Source: Diplonema papillatum
Taxonomy: Eukaryota > Euglenozoa > Diplonemea > Diplonemida > Diplonemidae
DNA: 64,000 bases
Reading direction: 5' to 3'
NCBI GenBank assembly: GCA_030068145.1
Contig: JAPJBO010000592.1
Coordinates: 62,001 to 126,000 of the forward strand
A model generated the notes under the pieces. It saw only the letters and a program-made list of their open reading frames with translations. It was not told the DNA's origin and did no database searches. Made by a program: the position numbers and the translations under genes. Below, piece after piece: positions 9,493-39,060 of this stretch (position 1 is its first letter; the number at the start of each line of letters is the position of its first letter).

Positions 9493-9654
9493 AACTGCGT
9501 CGCGCACTCAGACAGAATTGAGAGCATGTACTTGGAACCCTTTCTCACGGTCAGTAATCTGGACAACCATTACGCTGGACGAATATCAGGAATCGACGAA
9601 TATCTTCGGGCTGTTTCAAAAATCTTCTCAAAAAGTATTTTCCTAAAAAAATTT

Positions 9655-10040
9655 TTTTTACTACCGAGAGCAACGACGCCGCACTTCGAAAAGCGCAACG
9701 TTCGCTGCTACCAGCAAACCTCTCTGAGCTATTCTACACTCTACTCTACTTAGAGCCATGGTGCGAACAATGGACCGATACGGTTTACAGGGCAACTCCT
9801 GCTCAACTTGTAAGACGTGGGGAGCCCAAGAACACTCACCTAACCTGGCGAGAACTTGGTGTCGGTCACAAATTGTTTCGAACCTGACTCGCCAAAGCGA
9901 CCAAGTAAGGTGTACACGAAAGAAGCCATGCATGCCCCCCCAAACCCACCCGTAATAGCTTTAAAAGAACCCATTCGACGAAAGTCACCCGGAGACTCTA
10001 AAATCCCGGATTCTCAAGCGAACTATAACTCTAAAAAATA
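9655..10040 (+). mobile_element. RT-USP retroelement family, 3'-end-only copy
   Basis: The block is collinear with 36110-36410 plus 38955-39055, which follow the RT-USP coding region; identity is high across 'cactaccgagagc...', 'ggcaactcctgctcaacttg' and 'gactctaaaatcccggattc'. It contains the conserved 95-nt element (9773-9867). No protein is encoded. Because this copy is uninterrupted at the C tract (9944-9950), it shows what the other locus looked like before its insertion. Confidence 0.8.
9773..9867 (+). ncRNA. Conserved 95-nt 3' element of the RT-USP family, copy 1 (predicted structured RNA)
   Basis: It begins GACCGATAC and ends GTGTCGGTC, which pair over 9 bp. An inner TTACA/TGTAA stem encloses GGCAACTCCTGCTCAAC. 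The same length and pairing, with compensating changes, occur at 13837, 20085 and 36237. Confidence 0.65.
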
Positions 10041-10644: not shown

Positions 10645-11970
10645 ATCCGAAACGGAGCGCCTCCGCTTCTGGCTTCCAGTTTTTGCGGCCGCTTTCTTGG
10701 AGGCTGGCTTTCCGGCCGCTTTCTTGGCAGCTGGCTTTGCGCTAGGCGCTGGAGCTGGCGCTGCCGGTGGCAATCTAGCATTAAACCGCAGATGCATTCT
10801 TACCTTGCGGAGCGCTGCCGACGGTTTCCCCCGTATTAGGGTGAAGTGGTCGCTCATGCCCAACAAGTCGTCTTCGTGTATCAGATACACTGTCGACAAT
10901 CTTCACCTGGAATACGATAGCCGCCAATAAAACGGCTTGTGTGTCCGCCCACGCTTTTCTCGCAGACTGCAGACGAACCCAACAGTCAAACTTGGACTCG
11001 TGTTCGTTGTGGAGGTCAATGGCTGCCCCGTCTTCTATTCGCTGTTTGAACAGCTCTCTCGTATTCAAATCCAAGTTGTCTAACTCTTGGAAAAGGATTG
11101 TGCGCAATGTGTGCCCTCCGTGGTCGTCACCGTTGTGCGAAGAAAAGAACATGTTCTGGCAGTTGGGTACGTTGGCGAGGCTGCTATAGAAACAGTCGCC
11201 ATCTCCGGCCACCAATACCAATTCCGTTCCGGTGTTCTGCACCCAGGTGAGCACAGAGGACAAATGCAGCTTTGGTTTCGCTTTGGACGAATGCTTTTTG
11301 TTTGCTGGTTTGGGAACAGGCACCGGCGGTGCTGGTTCTTCCCCCTTGTCGTCCTTCTTTGCCTGTAGGGGCGGCTTCGTGCACGTAACCTTATAGTGCC
11401 CCTTTGAGCCGCACCTGGTGCACGTGACTTGCCGCTTCTTGGCATCCCTGAAAGGCAATTCGTCATCGTCGACCTCCCCTCGGCTCGGGATGCGCTTTTC
11501 TTTTGGTCGACCTGACGATCTCTTGGGTCGCGGGGGTGCAAGATTGTCGAGCGCAAGGGTCTTTATATCGTGCACAGTCGGAACGCTGATGTCGTAAAAC
11601 TCCCGTAACGATCCCACCGTGTACTTGCTGTCGACAAGGGCCAAGGGATGGACCTTTCTCTGGCCGCAAGCACACACGATGTGCACACACGGAAACGGCG
11701 ACACGCACTGGCCAATGCATGAGCACTTGTACACGGTGCCATTGCTTAAAACGCGCACCCTGTGCTTTACTCCGCTTTTCGCTTCGTTTACCTCGTACTC
11801 TGCTTGTCCGGCAGGCGTGGCAGAGAAACCCCGAGCAAGGTACTCAATTTTCCCCAACCTCTTCTCGACCCATGGAACAAATGTAGAGGCATCTCTCTGT
11901 GCGTACTGCCCTGCTCTTGCTGAATACAGATGCATGAGACTGTGTCGCGGTGAAGTCAGCAGCACTTGCA
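10645..11970 (-). pseudogene. MULE-type transposase C-terminus fused to an OTU cysteine protease (one frameshift)
   Basis: Reading down the minus strand: a MULE-like helical segment; a SWIM zinc finger (C83-x-C85 ... C95-x-H97, 'YKCSCIGQC...PCVHIVC'); a CCHC knuckle (CTRCGSKGHYKVTC, residues 184-197); a Lys/Pro linker; then an OTU-family protease with the Asp-Cys motif DGDCFYSSL (D257, C260) and the helix 'AWADTQAVLLAA'. The expected catalytic His (SDHFTLI) is present but in another frame, reached by a 1-nt shift near 10893; that frame ends in an Ala/Lys tail at 10645. The DDE catalytic core of the transposase is missing. OTU domains in MULEs are known in plants and protists. The inferred role is removal of ubiquitin-like marks by the element's own protein. 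Confidence 0.8.
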
Positions 11971-11984
11971 AATTGCGCTTTCAT

Positions 11985-12722: not shown

Positions 12723-12849
12723 TACCTTTTTATTATTTGGTGAAACTTTGTATGAGCCCCCCCCCCTCCCCCAGTGCTGATGCTAAGGCCCCTAAACTCG
12801 GCATCGTTGTCAGCCGGACGGCAACGAGGGTGGGTGGGCCCCCTAAACA

Positions 12850-13620
12850 CCCCCCCCCGGGACACAACCGCTGAGGCTCAGAGCAGTTGTTGCCCACGCA
12901 GGACGAGACAACGCGGGACACTACACTGTACACGTGTTAAACGATACCCCATACAATGACGCAAGATGGACACACTTCGACAACGCCAACATCACGCATT
13001 CAGCCAATCGCGGCTACACCGACCAGAGTACGAATGTACTCTTCTATACGTTTGACCCAACAGAACCTGTACACGAACCGGTTCCCTGCCACCTCGACGA
13101 CGACGCAATGACAAACTCAACACCGCACACCGCACTTCAGACCCCAACGCGCACGGGGAACGAAACCGCACAACGCAGCTCTCAATCCACCACCGACGTC
13201 CCATCATCCGACAAGAGCAGCGGCACTGCCACGCCAACCCAACAAATTCTCGAAGAAATGCGTGGCCTAGAGCCTACTCCGGGCCACACGCCCGACACGG
13301 AGGCACTCCAATGTCCGAACTGCCACACACGAACGACGAAAACTGGCACTGCAATAAAAGGCATCCACGGCCTGAGCATCCACCTGCGTTTTTGCAAGAA
13401 GAAACTACGACGCACACCACCACGCCACAGCACCACGCCTGCAAGCTCAGCAGGCAAAAGGGAGATTTGCCCGTACTGTCACAGCGACGGACAGACACCG
13501 AACAAACCACAATTCACAAGCCTACGACACCACAAACCGTGGTGCAAAACTAAACACCGCAAACCAGGAGCTACGACCAGAAACCAGCCACGATGCCAGA
13601 GTGCATTCAGAGTACCTTAA
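12850..13620 (+). pseudogene. RT-USP retroelement family, 5'-truncated copy: USP His-box and zinc fingers
   Basis: Directly after a C tract (12851-12858) the frame encodes the end of a USP-type peptidase: 'LRLRAVVAHAGRDNAGHYTV' (His box, GHY) and 'RWTHFDNANI' (the WxxFD segment). A Ser/Thr linker and two Cys/His fingers follow (CPNC...HLRFC, about 13312-13395; CPYC...H..WC, about 13470-13540), ending '...FRVP' at TAA 13620. The same architecture and the same final residues occur at 34.5-36.07 kb. The RT and the USP Cys box are missing, as expected for a 5'-truncated retrocopy. No frameshift was seen in what remains. Confidence 0.8.
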
Positions 13621-14055
13621 CTGCGGAGGACAACAAGCAGTCGCCACTTACTCAAGAAAGAATTTTTTCTTAGCAGCAAACAGTTCACACATAAACTACA
13701 GCTAGGTCTACAACCAGTTGCTGAGTTTTCACCACTACTACTACACCTGCTGTTGCCAAACCTTCTCTTTCTACTACCCGACCCTCCCCACCGCACGTCC
13801 TCCTCAACCTAAAAGAAAGTAAGAACGCATATTACAGACCGATACGAGCTGCATGGCAACCCCTGCTCAACATGCATGCGCGTGGGGGGCCCAAGGCTAA
13901 ATTCAAAGCGAATTTCTTCTTGGTGTCGGTCGCAACACTTACAAACATGGCTAGCCGTAGTTAAAGTGTATAAGCATACCTACTACCCTCATACCACCCG
14001 CCTCACAGCTCAATGGTCAACCGGAGACCCTAAAACACCGAACCTCTAAACCACA
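13621..14055 (+). mobile_element. 3' UTR and end of RT-USP copy
   Basis: It aligns in order with the 3' end of the 33.5-kb copy: 'ctgcggaggacaacaagcag', the 95-nt structured element (13837-13931), then 'ggagaccctaaaacaccgaa' near 14020-14045. Ends are approximate. Confidence 0.65.
13837..13931 (+). ncRNA. Conserved 95-nt 3' element, copy 2
   Basis: GACCGATAC pairs with GTGTCGGTC. The inner stem is TGCATG/CATGCA, replacing TTACA/TGTAA and CTACATG/CATGTAG of other copies (compensating changes), around an unchanged GGCAACCCCTGCTCAA loop. Confidence 0.65.
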
Positions 14056-14289
14056 ATGAACGCTAGGAAATTTGTGTACAGTCTCCTTCTACAGTTCTTC
14101 AAATCCTTTCTGCTTAGATCGGTTGTCACATTCTTGCTTGACGAAGAGACAACCGAGACAGCCGAGCAGCAGATAGCAAGAAAAAGCGGGCCAGGATACC
14201 CAGTCTGAGCGCTGAAGTTGGAAGACACCGTCCTTTTTGACTCAGCTCAATGCAGTTTCACTGTATTTCACTGGTTATTCTACTGGGAG

Positions 14290-14362: not shown

Positions 14363-14579
14363 TATGGTACGATGCCAAAAGGGGGGGGGGGGGGGGGGTT
14401 TGGGCAGATGTTTTCTGGCACAGTAAGATACTGGACAAGTGGGGTATAGGACCTACGGCCCCCCAAAAACCATGTTTGCGAGCCGATTTCGAGCTCAAAT
14501 GCTCTCGGCGAGCCTTCTTTTGAGCACAAAACGCGGTTTTTCTGGATTTCGAGGCCCCAGGTAGGGTAACGCCTGTACA

Positions 14580-16430
14580 ATGACTTTGATACAGCACCCA
14601 CCCACCAAAGGAACTGAACAAAATCTTAAAATGCGCGACTCGGGAATGCGTTTTGTCGAAACATCGGTTGAAGAATTCGCGAGGCAAGACGCGTATACGA
14701 AGTACGATAAGTCATCGGGCACCATGAAGAGACGCTTCAAAGTGACGAGAGCCTTTCTGGAGAAGGTCGCAGGAGCTGACCCGATCGGGTTCGTTGTATC
14801 TCTGTGTACAGAGACTGAGAAGGCCCGAATCTGGCGTGAGTTATCCGGTTCATTTCCTGAAACGTTCAACAGCATCACGCACGAGCTGACACGGCGCAAG
14901 ATCGTGCAGGGTTTGGGATGGGTGAGGCAGCGGTACGCGGTAGTGGGCATGAAAGTTGGGGACAAGCTGTGGGCCAACAGACAGAACGGGGAAGAGGTGG
15001 CAAGAGGCGGGCGACCAACAAAGGTGACCCCGGAAATGAGGCAGCAGGCATTCGACGATCACGAGCAGGCATCGACACCAACGTCACGTGTCATCAAAAA
15101 GCTTTGCACCGCAGACGAGACGGTTGTCGCACAGAACGTTCTCGTACCCTTCCAGCTGGTGTACGAAGAAAGCGACCTGAATCAAAAGGTGTCGTACACC
15201 ACGTACCGCCGGCTACGTGGAGCCCAGTTCCAGCACCTTTCTCGACGGACCGATGTGTGTGACACCTGTGCAGAAGGGAACATGATTAACAATCGCCTTC
15301 GTGAGTACATTGCCAGTAACAAGAAGTGGCTCACTTCGCAGTACTGGCGATCAGACGCGAGCCCCTTTTTTCTGTTCGGCGCTTTGGACGAACCTACTAT
15401 TCCCCCCCAAGTCAAGAGCAGTTTAGCAGTTATGTTGCACCAGCTCATGGAAGTCCAGCTTCATCAGGAATCTGCGGCACGACAGAGGGCAGCTTACAAT
15501 GCTCACCTCAAGAACCCACCACCCGGCTGTGTCGTGGTGACATTCGACTTTAAGCAGAAGGGAAAGTTGCCGATGCTGCCAGAAGAGCCTGGTCAGCTTT
15601 TTTACAACCAGGGGGCCTTCTCTCTCCTTGGGTTTGGCTTGCATTGGACAACTGGTGATTCGACCAAACGCCAGCACATTGACATACTGATGCGCACGCA
15701 CAATCAGTGCTCGTTTGCCGCAGTGCGTGCTCTGGAGCGGGCAAAGGAATTCTTTCCGGAAGACAAAAAGTGTGTTTACTGGTGTGATTCTGGTAGGCAT
15801 TTCCGAAGCCTCCTCTTCATCAGTCGCCTTCTCGAAGAAAAATCGACGGCTTCGATAAACTTCTTTGAGGGCGGGCACGGCAAGAACGACCGTGACCAGC
15901 ACTTCGGCTCTGTTAGCCGGGCACTCGACATGGCATCCCGCAAGAACGCCGTGCAAACGTTGAACGATGTCAAAGGAGTGATAGAAAGGATTGCTTGCAC
16001 AGCGGCAGTTCAAGTTCGTATCCGTTCACAAACCGCCACTTTCAACGTCAGAAAGATAGGGAACGTCATGGTCATCGGGTCATATGAGAAAGACAGCCTT
16101 GGCAATGTGACAGTTCATGACTTCAGTGGTGAACCGGGGTGCAAACTTCGAGCGAAAACCCGCCCTGTGGCCTTCACGTTCACGCCAAAGGTCTCGGACA
16201 AGCTGCCGCTGTGCAACTCAGATAGTGAGTGTGACGTACTGAGTAGCAGGAGTGAGTGCTCGTCATCTAGCTCAAGCGAAGGTCTGAAAGGAAGGCTCCA
16301 TAAAAAGCGGCTCAAGAAGAAACAGGTTTTCGACGAGCTGGCTGCGAAAGACCAAAAAGAGGCTAAGAGAGCAAGAACCACTGGCAGGAAACCTGTAGCA
16401 AAGTCAGCAAGTCGCGGCACGAAGCGGTAG
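14580..16430 (+). CDS. Putative DDE-type transposase, superfamily not recognised
   Basis: 616 residues, uninterrupted, starting 27 bp inside the left inverted repeat and ending 58 bp before the right one, which itself argues that it is the transposase. Visible features: 'GRPTKVTPE' HTH-like start at about 144-152; a C-x2-C pair (DVCDTCAEG, 226-233); a likely RNase H-fold core with D323 (TFDFKQK), D403 (YWCDSGRHFRS) and a Gly/His block GHGKNDRDQHFG (432-443) whose Asp residues could supply the third acidic residue; a Ser-rich and then Lys/Arg-rich C-terminus (from about 548). The role (strand cleavage and transfer) is inferred from context. I cannot name the superfamily; it does not look like MULE, hAT, piggyBac or mariner by motif. 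Confidence 0.75.
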   Translation: MTLIQHPPTKGTEQNLKMRDSGMRFVETSVEEFARQDAYTKYDKSSGTMKRRFKVTRAFLEKVAGADPIGFVVSLCTETEKARIWRELSGSFPETFNSITHELTRRKIVQGLGWVRQRYAVVGMKVGDKLWANRQNGEEVARGGRPTKVTPEMRQQAFDDHEQASTPTSRVIKKLCTADETVVAQNVLVPFQLVYEESDLNQKVSYTTYRRLRGAQFQHLSRRTDVCDTCAEGNMINNRLREYIASNKKWLTSQYWRSDASPFFLFGALDEPTIPPQVKSSLAVMLHQLMEVQLHQESAARQRAAYNAHLKNPPPGCVVVTFDFKQKGKLPMLPEEPGQLFYNQGAFSLLGFGLHWTTGDSTKRQHIDILMRTHNQCSFAAVRALERAKEFFPEDKKCVYWCDSGRHFRSLLFISRLLEEKSTASINFFEGGHGKNDRDQHFGSVSRALDMASRKNAVQTLNDVKGVIERIACTAAVQVRIRSQTATFNVRKIGNVMVIGSYEKDSLGNVTVHDFSGEPGCKLRAKTRPVAFTFTPKVSDKLPLCNSDSECDVLSSRSECSSSSSSEGLKGRLHKKRLKKKQVFDELAAKDQKEAKRARTTGRKPVAKSASRGTKR

Positions 16431-32684: not shown

Positions 32685-32899
<215 letters not shown>

Positions 32900-33535: not shown

Positions 33536-33559
33536 AAGAGTGGGTTTGACCGTTGACGA

Positions 33560-34470
33560 AGCGTATGACTACGAAGAGAAGCATGGTCACAACCACCTCA
33601 CCAGGGGCTCAAAACAACAGGGTAAAAAGACCTCCAACTTCGGCAAAGGAGCGAACAACACCAACCGAAACTACACAAGAGAAGAAGTCAAAGCCCTTCT
33701 GAATTTCGTCATCGACAACGCCTCACATCGAGCAAGGCGATACGATTTTCAGACAGACAGGAGGCATACCGATGGGAGGTAACGCAAGTTCGGACTTAGC
33801 AAACCTTTACTGCTACAGCGCAGAGTCCGAAAACATCGACGGCCGTCTAGCACAGGGCAAACACGACGAAGCCAAAGCGTTCGTGAACACCTGGCGGTTC
33901 ATCGACGACTTCTTACAATGGGACTGTAAACCCCCACCTGAAGCCTTATACCGAATGGAGTACAAAGAAACAGTCTAGAAACAACAACGGCGCGAGACGA
34001 CACCGTTTTTTTAGGCATACGAATCCGCATCGAACGTCCAGAAGCACCACACCCAGCACACATACGACTCAATGTTCATCCTAAAACATACGGTACGCGC
34101 TTCACACACCACCAGACCACAGCCCCCAAGACTCAAGCAAGCGGCATCTTTAAAGGCTCGCTGATACGAGCGATGCGGCAAACCAACCATTGGCAGGACC
34201 TCCGCGTAGAGATACAGCGGAACGTCTACGCGATGCTCGAACGAGGGCACCACCCGAGAGTCCTCTACCCCCCATGGCAAGCCTGGCTAACCGAGGAATT
34301 TCGAAGCTTACCACGACTGCACAACCAGCTGAAACCATTCCTCGGCTACAGTATCGCGCGATACAAAGCCGCGCATCGCAGAAGCCGAATTTGCCGGAAA
34401 ACACCAACCTATCAACTTCAGACCAGCCGAACTACCAGTCACGCCGGACGACCTCGCTTCTTCCTTAGAT
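33560..34470 (+). pseudogene. Reverse transcriptase of the RT-USP element ('GIPMG...DLANLY' type)
   Basis: Three frames spell one RT: 'EVKALLNFVIDNA' (33687-33725); after a shift, 'TIFRQTGGIPMGGNASSDLA' (motif B region, 33745-33800) and the catalytic 'WRFIDDFLQW' (33889-33921; Y/F-x-DD motif); after another shift, 'TVFLGIRIRI' and 'GIFKGSLIRAMRQ...MLERGHHP' (34010-34260), a thumb-like region. The GIPMG-N...DL-NLY and F-I-DD pattern recalls Penelope-like and related RTs rather than LINEs. I see no GIY-YIG or other endonuclease. Two frameshifts make it a pseudogene. A Ser/Thr linker leads directly into the USP domain, suggesting one original polyprotein. Confidence 0.7.
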
Positions 34471-34498
34471 AGCAGCACCTCTACGACACACGAGCACG

Positions 34499-36069
34499 AT
34501 GAAAGTCGAAGACCGACGGCAACAAACACCAACGCACTTCACCCTCAAACAAAGAGTAGCCAACATCGTAGCAAGCATCACCCTCGCAGCAGCAGTCGCG
34601 GCGGCCGGAGCCAAAACACTCTCAAAGCTCGCACGGTTCACTACAACAAACTCCTGCTTCCTTCAAGCCGCGTTGAACCTAATCGCCGCCACCGACATGG
34701 CCCAACAAGTGGTTACATACAACGAATGTGCATCGCACGCGAAGGGCGATTGTACGGCAGCCGTAAGCGATTGGGTTACAGGAAGACGGACGCAAGTGAC
34801 ACTTCTGCATGTTTTCGCCAGCATCGACGGCCCCTTCGGGGACGGGCAGCAGTGTGATCTCGGGGAAGTCCTTCGTGCAATCACTACAGCCCTACTGAAC
34901 GAAAACGCAGCGCACCAAGCTTGTCAACAGAATCGGCAAGACGCATTCGTCGGCCTCCAGCACAACATTACAACAACCACAACCTGCAAACAATGCAGCC
35001 ACTCCAAGTCCAACTCACCGGAAACTCAAGACATTACGTACCTTCCACCAGGCGGCAATTCGATACAGAGATGTCTGAACCTCTGGAGCACACCCCGCTT
35101 AGCCGTCGACTACAAATGTGAAGCTTGCAAACTCACCAACACCACTTTGACAAGACCTTGCTACCAACACATCAACACAATGCTGCTTATCCAACTTCAA
35201 AGGGCACGCAAAAACGACACAACAAACCGCACCGCCATACACGCAGACCACACCATCACACTCCCAGGACGTAACGCCCCCCTCAATCTAAGAGCGATAG
35301 CCGTACACTCCGGCCACAACAATGCAGGCCACTACGTCATCCACGCCCTCAACGAGTCTGCAGACGCAGGCCAACGATGGTCATGTTTCGACGGTGTTCG
35401 GACGCACCACACACCGGCCCCGACGTACTCCAGCAACGAGATTTTCCTCTGCGTCTACCAGCCTCAAGACGTCCAAGTAATGGTGGTCCCCCCACCAGTC
35501 TTCTTACCATTCAACGACCACAAAACTACACCCACCTCGCCGATAACCATGTCTGCAGACGCGGGTTTAACCCAGGACCTCTTAGACGCCATACGAGGAG
35601 ACGAATTATCCGCCACTCAAACTGGAACGCAGCTCGACGAGCACACCGCCGCCGACAACAGCAGAGCCACCACACCTACAAGTTTAAATACCCCGCAAAG
35701 CACCACCTCTACCACGGAACCAGAATCTAGCAGCGACGACGACTTGCAATGCCCCTACTGCCACGCACGAACAACGGCAGCCGGACACCTTTTTAAAGGA
35801 AAGCAGGGACTGCGCGTGCACCAACGGTTCTGCAAAGAAAGACCACCAACGGTTCAACTAGAATACACACTGCAAGGTCCCGCGAAGAAACGAGACAGAT
35901 GCCCATATTGCAACAGCGACTAGTGGGGAAACCACTTTTCACAAGTCTACGCCATCACGATCCCTGGTGCAAAAAGAAACACAAAGCAAAGCGACGCGCT
36001 ACCTCTAAGAAACCGACGGACGAAAAACTAGATACACCACGGGTACCCAGTGTGCCCAGAGTGCCCTAA
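34499..36069 (+). pseudogene. USP-type deubiquitinase with C-terminal zinc fingers, encoded by the RT-USP element
   Basis: The 474-codon frame 34499-35923 has every USP landmark: Cys box 'NSCFLQAALNLI' (C53), the paired C-x2-C zinc ribbon (C163/C166, C207/C210), 'HINTMLLIQLQR', and the His box 'NNAGHYVIHAL' (H278) with 'RWSCFDG' (W294, D298). A Ser/Thr linker and a C-x2-C...H-x3-C finger (C418-C445) follow. The second finger is cut by a stop at 35921-35923; a 1-nt shift restores 'FTSLRHHDPWCKKKH' and the same end ('RVP', TAA 36067-36069) as the 12.9-kb copy. USPs cleave ubiquitin from proteins; here the inferred use is protection or release of the element's own proteins. Confidence 0.8.
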
Positions 36070-36236
36070 CTGTGGCGAGCAACGAACAGTGCAACTACTT
36101 ATCTTCTAAATTGTTTTTTTCACTACCGAGAGCGACGACGTCACGCACTTCGAAAAGCGCAACGTTCGTTTCTACCCGCAAACCTCTCTGAGCTATTCTA
36201 CACTCTTCTCTACGTAGAGCCATGATGCGAACAATG

Positions 36237-36331
36237 GACCGGTACGGTTTACAGGGCAACTCCTGCTCAACTTGTAGGACGTGGGGAGCCCAAGAGCACT
36301 CACCTATCCTGGCGAGAACTTGGTGTCGGTC
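36237..36331 (+). ncRNA. Conserved 95-nt 3' element, copy 4
   Basis: GACCGGTAC pairs with GTGTCGGTC; inner TTACA/TGTAG stem. It lies 168 bp after the end of the USP/finger reading frame, in the 3' UTR of the longest RT-USP copy. Confidence 0.7.
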
Positions 36332-36410
36332 ACAAATTGTTTCGAACCTGACTCGTCTAAGCGAGCAAATAAAGTGTACACGAAAGAAGCCATGCATGCC
36401 CCCCCCCCCC

Positions 36411-38940: not shown

Positions 38941-38954
38941 CCCCCCCCCCCCCC

Positions 38955-39060
38955 AAACCCACCCAGTACGTATTAGCTTTAAAAGAACCCATTCGACGAA
39001 GGTCACCCGGAGACTCTAAAATCCCGGATTCTCAAGCGAACTATAACTCTAAAAAGTTGT
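38955..39060 (+). mobile_element. RT-USP copy, displaced 3' end
   Basis: 'aaacccaccc ... gactctaaaatcccggattc' equals 9951-10035. It is the continuation of 36410 across the insertion. Confidence 0.8.

Follow-up and report, generated by a model that had tools for sequence, protein, structure and literature searches.

The stretch analysed here, called the window throughout, consists of 64,000 nucleotides from the genome of Diplonema papillatum, a marine flagellate of the Euglenozoa (contig JAPJBO010000592.1, positions 62,001 to 126,000, forward strand). It contains a copy of a retroelement in which a reverse transcriptase (RT) is followed by a ubiquitin-specific protease (USP) domain. This element and its relatives elsewhere in the genome are our subject, and their features in the window are collected in Table 1. 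An original prediction, made from the letters of the window, had placed at 33560..36069 an RT directly followed by a complete USP domain and two zinc fingers, and these parts are found. The RT motifs GIPMGGNASSDLAN and FIDD lie within the frame 33703-33978, and the RT part aligns with the RT of family B, described below (52% over 33537-34184, in a tblastn alignment crossing frame breaks). The frame 34469-35923 matches Pfam UCH (PF00443) with an E value of 7.5e-10 and 39.3 bits, the cut-off being 23.9, and a Cys box, two C-x2-C pairs, a GHY box and W-x2-FD can be recognised in it by eye. Both fingers are visible as C-x2-C..H..C patterns at 35735-36024, although no Pfam zinc-finger model scores above its cut-off. 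The predicted position holds the element but was too narrow: homology runs from 33536 to 36406, beyond the stop and into the 3' untranslated region (UTR). The copy contains at least three frame changes and starts within the RT, with no endonuclease, and is therefore a dead element.

The genome (271 Mb, 2910 contigs) was searched for relatives of this copy, which itself belongs to family A. The relatives fall into families and subfamilies named here A, B, D, E, G, G4, X, Y and Z. Against Pfam UCH their USP domains score 82.2 bits in X (E 5.7e-23), 74.4 in Y (E 1.5e-20), 56.9 in G (E 3e-15), 52.1 in E (E 8.9e-14), 48.3 in a piece of B (E 1.3e-12) and 36.1 in A (E 6.9e-9). A search with this model had been named beforehand as a check on the prediction, and it finds the domain. 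The Cys and His boxes are kept in all nine families and subfamilies, the Cys box of D being NSCYL; the acidic position is FD or YD in seven of the nine, LD in D and HYNN in E. A profile built from seven of the USPs (A, B, E, G, X, Y and locus L054) matches 104 distinct solved sequences at E <= 0.001. The best of these is USP36 (E 9.3e-28, positions 1-277 of 314), and USP12/46 is also among the best matches. From these similarities we infer that the element USP removes ubiquitin. For the family-B USP no family is listed by NCBIfam, which is a prokaryote library. Locus L054 (C9:546040-546840) was picked as a host USP; in the tree it groups with X, Y and Z, so that it could represent one more family of elements, or else a copy that has been domesticated.

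The RT and the USP are fused in all nine families and subfamilies as read from genomic DNA, D and Z having been read partially only. In the open frames of L033, L035 and contig C233 the domain order is a long proline/threonine-rich N-terminus, a GIY-YIG endonuclease (EN), a C-x-C..GHA motif, the RT, the USP and zinc fingers. The EN motif is present upstream of GIPMG in all seven that were read far enough upstream (A, B, E, G, X, Y and G4). GIY-YIG scores lie above the Pfam cut-off of 22.6 bits in G (26.5), E (25.3) and X (22.9), and below it in Y (22.4), B (21.4) and A (18.8); the family-B domain also matches TIGR01453 with E 4.7e-7 and 30 bits, below that model's own cut-off of 56. The predicted proteins are long, with 2663 residues in A (contig C233), 2110 in B (locus L035), 2199 in E (open to the start of the locus), 1513 in G, 1448 in G4, 1562 in X and 1585 in Y; the open frame of L033 has 1648. 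Those of G and G4 stop at the USP, without zinc fingers. X (L038 and L040) and Y (L039 and L041) have intact frames of the lengths given, with GIY-YIG, RT, USP and a finger. Because the copies within each pair are 99.76% (X) and 99.95% (Y) identical and their frames are intact, both families are, judged from these sequences, recently active. As a separate observation, the N-terminus of one family-B copy contains 8.4 copies of a 192-bp tandem repeat, equivalent to a 64-residue repeat (L036/L034, C13). The 3' ends of X and Y are a run of C (L038:6255, L039:6020), and those of A and B a short run of A.

The elements are numerous. A genome search with the USP stretch gave at least 41 matches (40 of 155 candidates scored). 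Of 30 loci taken from it, 19 have an RT match on the strand of the USP. The other 11 have none; there the similarity to the element sets in no earlier than the USP itself, so that they are 5'-cut or partial copies. The copies share a precise 3' end (..AACTCTAAAAA), after which their flanks differ; contigs C2198, C1655, C1389 and C1222 have a common flank and were counted as one insertion. With the family-B RT, the best 121 of 582 candidates comprised B, A, D (about 80%), E (62-63%) and G (47%), with frames of up to 2210 residues in E and up to about 1525 in G. With the G RT, at least 99 matches were obtained (98 of 635 candidates scored), in subfamilies at 99-100, 92-93, 81 and 77%, the last being G4. 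Among the best 149 of 935 candidates in a search with Pfam UCH, 54 belong by score to X (85.3-85.9 bits), 41 to Y (76.5 bits) and 17 to an intermediate class (76.7-81.1 bits), representatives alone having been read; the one read from the intermediate class is Z (L057). Most of the remaining 37, of which 12 were retrieved, resemble host USPs, or parts of these, and are single. No USP-less family of this RT clade was found among those read, which do not include every score-defined subfamily.

The linkage of RT and USP, the second check named beforehand, holds across the genome. For 39 of 44 A/B/D RT matches, a USP match lies 466-478 bp downstream on the same strand; on the USP side the best 150 of 664 candidates were scored, and the other five RT matches have no USP among these. 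Conversely, 30 of 69 A/B/D USP matches, including the window copy, have no RT among the 44, as is expected because 5'-truncated or partial copies exist. The original prediction held that the USP belongs to the mobile unit and was not trapped by chance, and this is borne out by the number of copies, by the genome-wide linkage and by the fusions in a single open frame. It did not extend to the upstream GIY-YIG, to the fusion in at least nine families or subfamilies, or to the related USP in SLACS-like elements discussed below.

That these are simply host USP genes with RT-like neighbours is hardly credible. The public gene models P0004 and P0005 are indeed labelled by NCBI as 'putative ubiquitin carboxyl-terminal hydrolase 16'. 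However, the RT and GIY-YIG share the reading frame of the USP, and the copies are dispersed by the dozen, near-identical, subject to 5' truncation and furnished with defined 3' ends. Between them, P0004 and P0005 represent families X and Y, with P0005 matching the protein of L038 at 100% along the query, and the database clusters named as host USPs are transposon proteins. Among other public models of these elements, P0007 is named ribosomal RNA-processing protein 12, and P0006 omits most of the USP.

Between families, RT identity falls to about 36% (A-X), and the USP is less conserved than the RT (70 vs 86% in A-B, 36 vs 63% in A-E, 57 vs 79% in X-Y and 24 vs 36% in A-X). The ratio of nonsynonymous to synonymous substitution (dN/dS) in the USP is 0.136 for A-B, 0.148 for A-D, 0.125 for X-Y and 0.204 for a SLACS-like pair, and in the RT it is 0.045 for A-B, 0.078 for X-Y and 0.147 for SLACS; the values are rough, with synonymous distances high or saturated (saturated in RT A-D, RT B-D and USP B-D). 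Purifying selection on the USP is evident in these comparisons. The faster change of the USP than of the RT in A-B and X-Y would fit a substrate or inhibitor that is a moving host target. Retroelements are described as transducing host sequence in the review Giant Transposons (PMC6431247), and the USP might in the same way be trapped host DNA without function. We regard this as very improbable, given that the domain is kept in all nine families and subfamilies over this range of RT identity, with its Cys and His boxes and with dN/dS of 0.125-0.148 in the three Penelope-type pairs, and that a related domain occurs in SLACS-like elements.

The features of the element point to a Penelope-like element (PLE) with permuted domains, because GIY-YIG lies in the same open reading frame (ORF) as the RT and N-terminal to it, and because 5' truncation and a head-to-tail array are found. 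This membership is probable but not proven. At C510:80909-93650, three G-lineage RT matches follow each other at 5726-bp steps on one strand, and over the 4175 bp compared two of the units are 99.98% identical. G-lineage RT copies also stand at 5850-bp steps, on one strand, at C2819:1314-8453 and C61:769-7764. These regularly spaced copies are head-to-tail arrays, that on C510 alone having been read. A group II RT model gives E 9.7e-4 for the RT, at 18.3 bits and thus far below its cut-off of 300. Its motifs (KLHK, FDFxxMYT, GIPMG, RFIDD) and the C-x-C..GHA motif presumably resemble those of animal GIPMGTNCAP-type elements, which we treat as a lead only.

On the basis of these observations, we propose that the element is an autonomous Penelope-type retroelement, which encodes a single protein with the USP at or near its C-terminal end and would function as follows. 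GIY-YIG would nick the target DNA, and target-primed reverse transcription by the RT, starting from the conserved 3' UTR, would copy the element RNA. Travelling in the same particle, the USP would remove ubiquitin either from the element's own long protein or, where the insertion takes place, from proteins of the host. The particle would thereby be shielded from the proteasome, or else from silencing and repair signals that depend on ubiquitin. Those elements that have zinc fingers probably use them to position the USP or to bind nucleic acid. Candidate substrates are the element's own protein, histones and host restriction factors, which sequence cannot tell apart. We consider this reading, mechanism included, to be reasonably likely. 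The 3' UTR block lies at L031:8781-8910, L033:7743-7890, window 13815-13960 and window 36237-36331, the window copy at the last of these being itself absent from the alignment that defines the block. It may form a hairpin, in which 4 of 17 predicted pairs change on both sides among four sequences, and is possibly a recognition site for the RT.

Several results weigh against this proposal, in addition to the roughness of the dN/dS values. The EN-RT of family B has no relatives outside D. papillatum at E <= 0.001, and a four-sequence EN-RT profile finds D. papillatum only at E <= 0.01 (best 8000 candidates scored in each case). The RT gives no meaningful match to solved structures in the PDB, and its match to RVT_1 is weak (E 0.04). 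No hammerhead was present among Rfam matches at E <= 5 in L031, L033, L035, L038, L039, L042, L043 and L061, the 5' ends of A, B, E, X and Y being incomplete; the hammerhead ribozyme is not universal among PLEs. X and Y have no 5'/3' terminal repeat of the pseudo-long terminal repeat (pseudo-LTR) type in the sequence compared, which does not reach their 5' ends. As for the USP, that of family A alone matches solved USPs weakly (E 0.046, in the His-box region), and the whole 2110-residue family-B protein searched against Pfam at E <= 0.1 returns GIY-YIG only, with UCH unlisted. A structure model of the USP from 4 sequences had a mean predicted local distance difference test (pLDDT) score of 36.7 and was not used. 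Finally, the SLACS pair shows the opposite trend in rates, the USP having a lower dN (0.188) than the RT (0.293) and so not changing faster.

The USP might instead be mainly a chromatin enzyme, deubiquitinating histone H2A/H2B at the nick and thereby opening chromatin or muting the damage response. A deubiquitinase fused to EN-RT would work at the insertion site, the GIY-YIG/RT arrangement suits target-primed insertion, and the best solved match of the USP profile is USP36, which is a nucleolar enzyme. The similarity to USP36 is however at the level of the fold only, and nothing in the sequence indicates histone specificity. This would be a special case of the proposal above, inseparable from it by sequence, and we think it rather unlikely that it describes the main role of the domain. 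It is far more doubtful that the USP is a processing protease that cuts the element's own polyprotein, as the papain-like deubiquitinases of some RNA viruses do. In its favour, the single polyprotein is very long (up to 2663 residues), and the USP is placed behind a linker at or near its C-terminal end. On the other hand, USPs normally require folded ubiquitin, no ubiquitin-like domain is among the Pfam matches listed, and there is no [LV]x[GAR]GG, R[GA]GG or LRGG site in 8 family ORFs (two of them partial), so that processing at Gly-Gly sites was rejected.

A related USP occurs in a second class of element. A protein search identified P0001, a D. papillatum protein labelled SLACS, which contains both RVT_1 and UCH; loci L059 and L060 (contigs C364 and C2353) have single frames of at least 3041 and at least 3329 residues with OTU, RVT_1 and UCH. 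RVT_1 is matched with E 5.2e-20 in P0001, 3.2e-21 in L059 and 8.2e-20 in L060. The OTU domain is N-terminal, and scores above its cut-off of 23.3 bits in L060 (25.6) and below it in L059 (20.4). Many such SLACS-like copies, at 94-100% and 72-75% and with frames of up to 4088 residues, are among the best 150 of 664 candidates of the USP search. Some of them lie a few kilobases from contig starts (C6:3444, C364:2216, C703:1272, C2353:1232). L059 and L060 share a further C-terminal region (GWAALNWLA..), and L059 ends in 138 A at the end of its contig.

The USP of P0001 is 45-48% identical to those of A, B and D, and in the tree the A, B, D and SLACS USPs stand together with support of 98.2/99. 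The trees leave out P0002 and P0003 (incomplete USP), G4, and the window 12847 copy (half USP). A position of the SLACS USP among host USPs is rejected by the approximately unbiased (AU) test (p-AU 3.5e-8). Positions of SLACS outside A/B/D/E (p-AU 0.06 and 0.10 in the first and second trees) and outside A/B/D (p-AU 0.34, second tree) both escape rejection, and the support for D with SLACS falls from 83.9/90 to 59/77 once a second SLACS sequence is added. Transfer of the USP from Penelope-like to SLACS-like elements is the direction favoured by the tree, but is not proven. A single capture of the USP was also considered and is not established: the split between element and host USPs has support of 93.8/52 in the first tree and 88.1/61 in the second, and the second analysis also allows X/Y/Z to stand next to certain host USPs (p-AU 0.23).

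The presence of a related USP in two unrelated classes of retroelement suggests that fighting the host ubiquitin system helps these elements to survive. A wider scenario is that a Penelope-like lineage took up a USP, kept it through deep divergence and came to share it with the unrelated SLACS-like class, which also bears OTU. Ubiquitin evasion would then be a standing, shared need of retrotransposition in diplonemids, and the fast-changing USP would reflect an arms race with the host. We put this forward tentatively, the chances lying slightly against it. A USP fused to EN-RT in more than 100 copies by score, together with its relative in a second class, offers a naturally replicated test of the role of a deubiquitinase; and if the placement of the RT is true, Penelope-type elements are added to the Euglenozoa.

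The window holds further pieces of these elements (Table 1). According to the original prediction a second, 5'-truncated copy of the same unit lies at 12.85-13.62 kb. A copy is present there, with the His-box half of the USP (12847-13620, UCH E 1.1e-6, 29 bits) and both fingers, but its family is a different one: because its USP piece is only 38% and its fingers only 64% identical to family B, it is, on sequence, a third and divergent family, separate from that of the 33536 copy. Its 3' UTR contains the conserved block common to the relatives. Directly upstream of the dead copy there is a long CTA trinucleotide microsatellite (32687-32898). The frame 10781-11980 (-) has SWIM-like cysteines, a zinc knuckle below the Pfam cut-off and an OTU-protease-like GDGDCFYSSL motif. 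It may be a transposon of the MULE type that encodes a deubiquitinase; Pfam does not list OTU for it. A repeated family of frames of 621-774 residues is represented at 14565-16430 (+) and at L031:524-2845, with 73% likeness at the DNA level, and the window frame has no Pfam match above cut-off. At the upstream edge of the family-A copy in L031 there is a piece of small-subunit rRNA (65 bits, L031:3737-3999, minus strand).

Table 1. Pieces of the USP-bearing retroelements in the 64,000-nucleotide window.
Feature	Position	Strand	Evidence
Degenerate, 5'-truncated family-A copy (RT remnant, USP, zinc-finger tail, partial 3' UTR)	33536..36406	+	98.0% to L031, 94.5% to the long C233 copy; frame breaks
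RT remnant (GIPMGG, FIDD), frameshifted	33537..34184	+	tblastn of family-B RT
Open frame with USP domain and first zinc finger	34469..35923	+	Pfam UCH E 7.5e-10
USP domain: Cys box, two C-x2-C pairs, His box, FD	34613..35470	+	Profile of relatives matches solved USPs
Pair of zinc-finger-like motifs (C-x2-C..H..C/H), of which the second is in a different frame	35735..36024	+	Seen by eye; no Pfam model above cut-off
Conserved 3' UTR block (GACCGRTACGG...GTGTCGGTC), putative RT recognition structure	36237..36331	+	Placed by eye from the alignment of relatives; fold of relatives
Copy of a divergent third family, 5'-truncated, with the His-box half of the USP, both fingers and 3' UTR	12847..14070	+	UCH 29 bits; 3' end approximate
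Family-A copy, 3' UTR only	9635..10040	+	99.5%
Family-A 3'-terminal fragment	38948..39055	+	94.4%

Among known elements, the closest in layout are PLEs with permuted domains, of the Chlamys/Naiad type, which were reportedly described by Craig et al. in 2021. In these, too, a single ORF encodes GIY-YIG and, following it, the RT, and they are alike in their 5' truncation and head-to-tail arrays (here in one subfamily). Unlike them, the elements of D. papillatum have a C-terminal USP, zinc fingers in most families, proteins of up to 2663 residues and, in A, B and E, a long repeat-rich N-terminus, and no hammerhead was found. Chlamys PLEs are reported in Ectocarpus (PMC12477816), and in canonical PLEs, according to PMC11167929, GIY-YIG is C-terminal and both tandem copies and pseudo-LTRs occur. 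The RT studied here is too distant for the present searches to join it to any known element.

Deubiquitinase-like domains are not new to mobile elements: Dualen/RandI are OTU-bearing transposable elements. The SLACS/CRE-like elements of D. papillatum (P0001, L059 and L060) carry a relative of the A, B and D USPs, and differ in their RVT_1-type RT and N-terminal OTU domain; they presumably also carry motifs of the restriction-like-endonuclease type. The non-LTR elements NeSL and Utopia-1_TSP, as presented in PMC4640811, are alike in that a ubiquitin/SUMO-removing cysteine protease forms part of a retroelement protein; their protease is however Ulp1-like, not a USP, and N-terminal, and they have a restriction-like endonuclease and an RT of another class. 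Helentrons, as described in PMC6431247, also contain a deubiquitinase-type protease, but it is an OTU and they are DNA elements. In these two accounts, the retroelement proteases that remove SUMO or ubiquitin are scattered Ulp1-like or OTU cases (PMC4640811, PMC6431247). The D. papillatum genome paper gives a size of about 280 Mb and names SLACS, LINE-1, R2, jockey, TATE, MULE and Helitron, and its main text contains neither 'Penelope' nor 'ubiquitin' (PMC10161547). In the main text of a paper on the trypanosomatid mobilome, Penelope appears once, as a general class, and 'ubiquitin' and 'protease' do not appear (PMC12278014). No USP-bearing retroelement was evident by title or abstract among the top-ranked open-licence papers on retroelement deubiquitinases or proteases and on transposons of Diplonema or Euglenozoa. 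With cellular USPs the domain shares the Cys box, the His box, the Asp/Asn and the zinc-binding cysteine pairs, but here it stands within a retroelement polyprotein.

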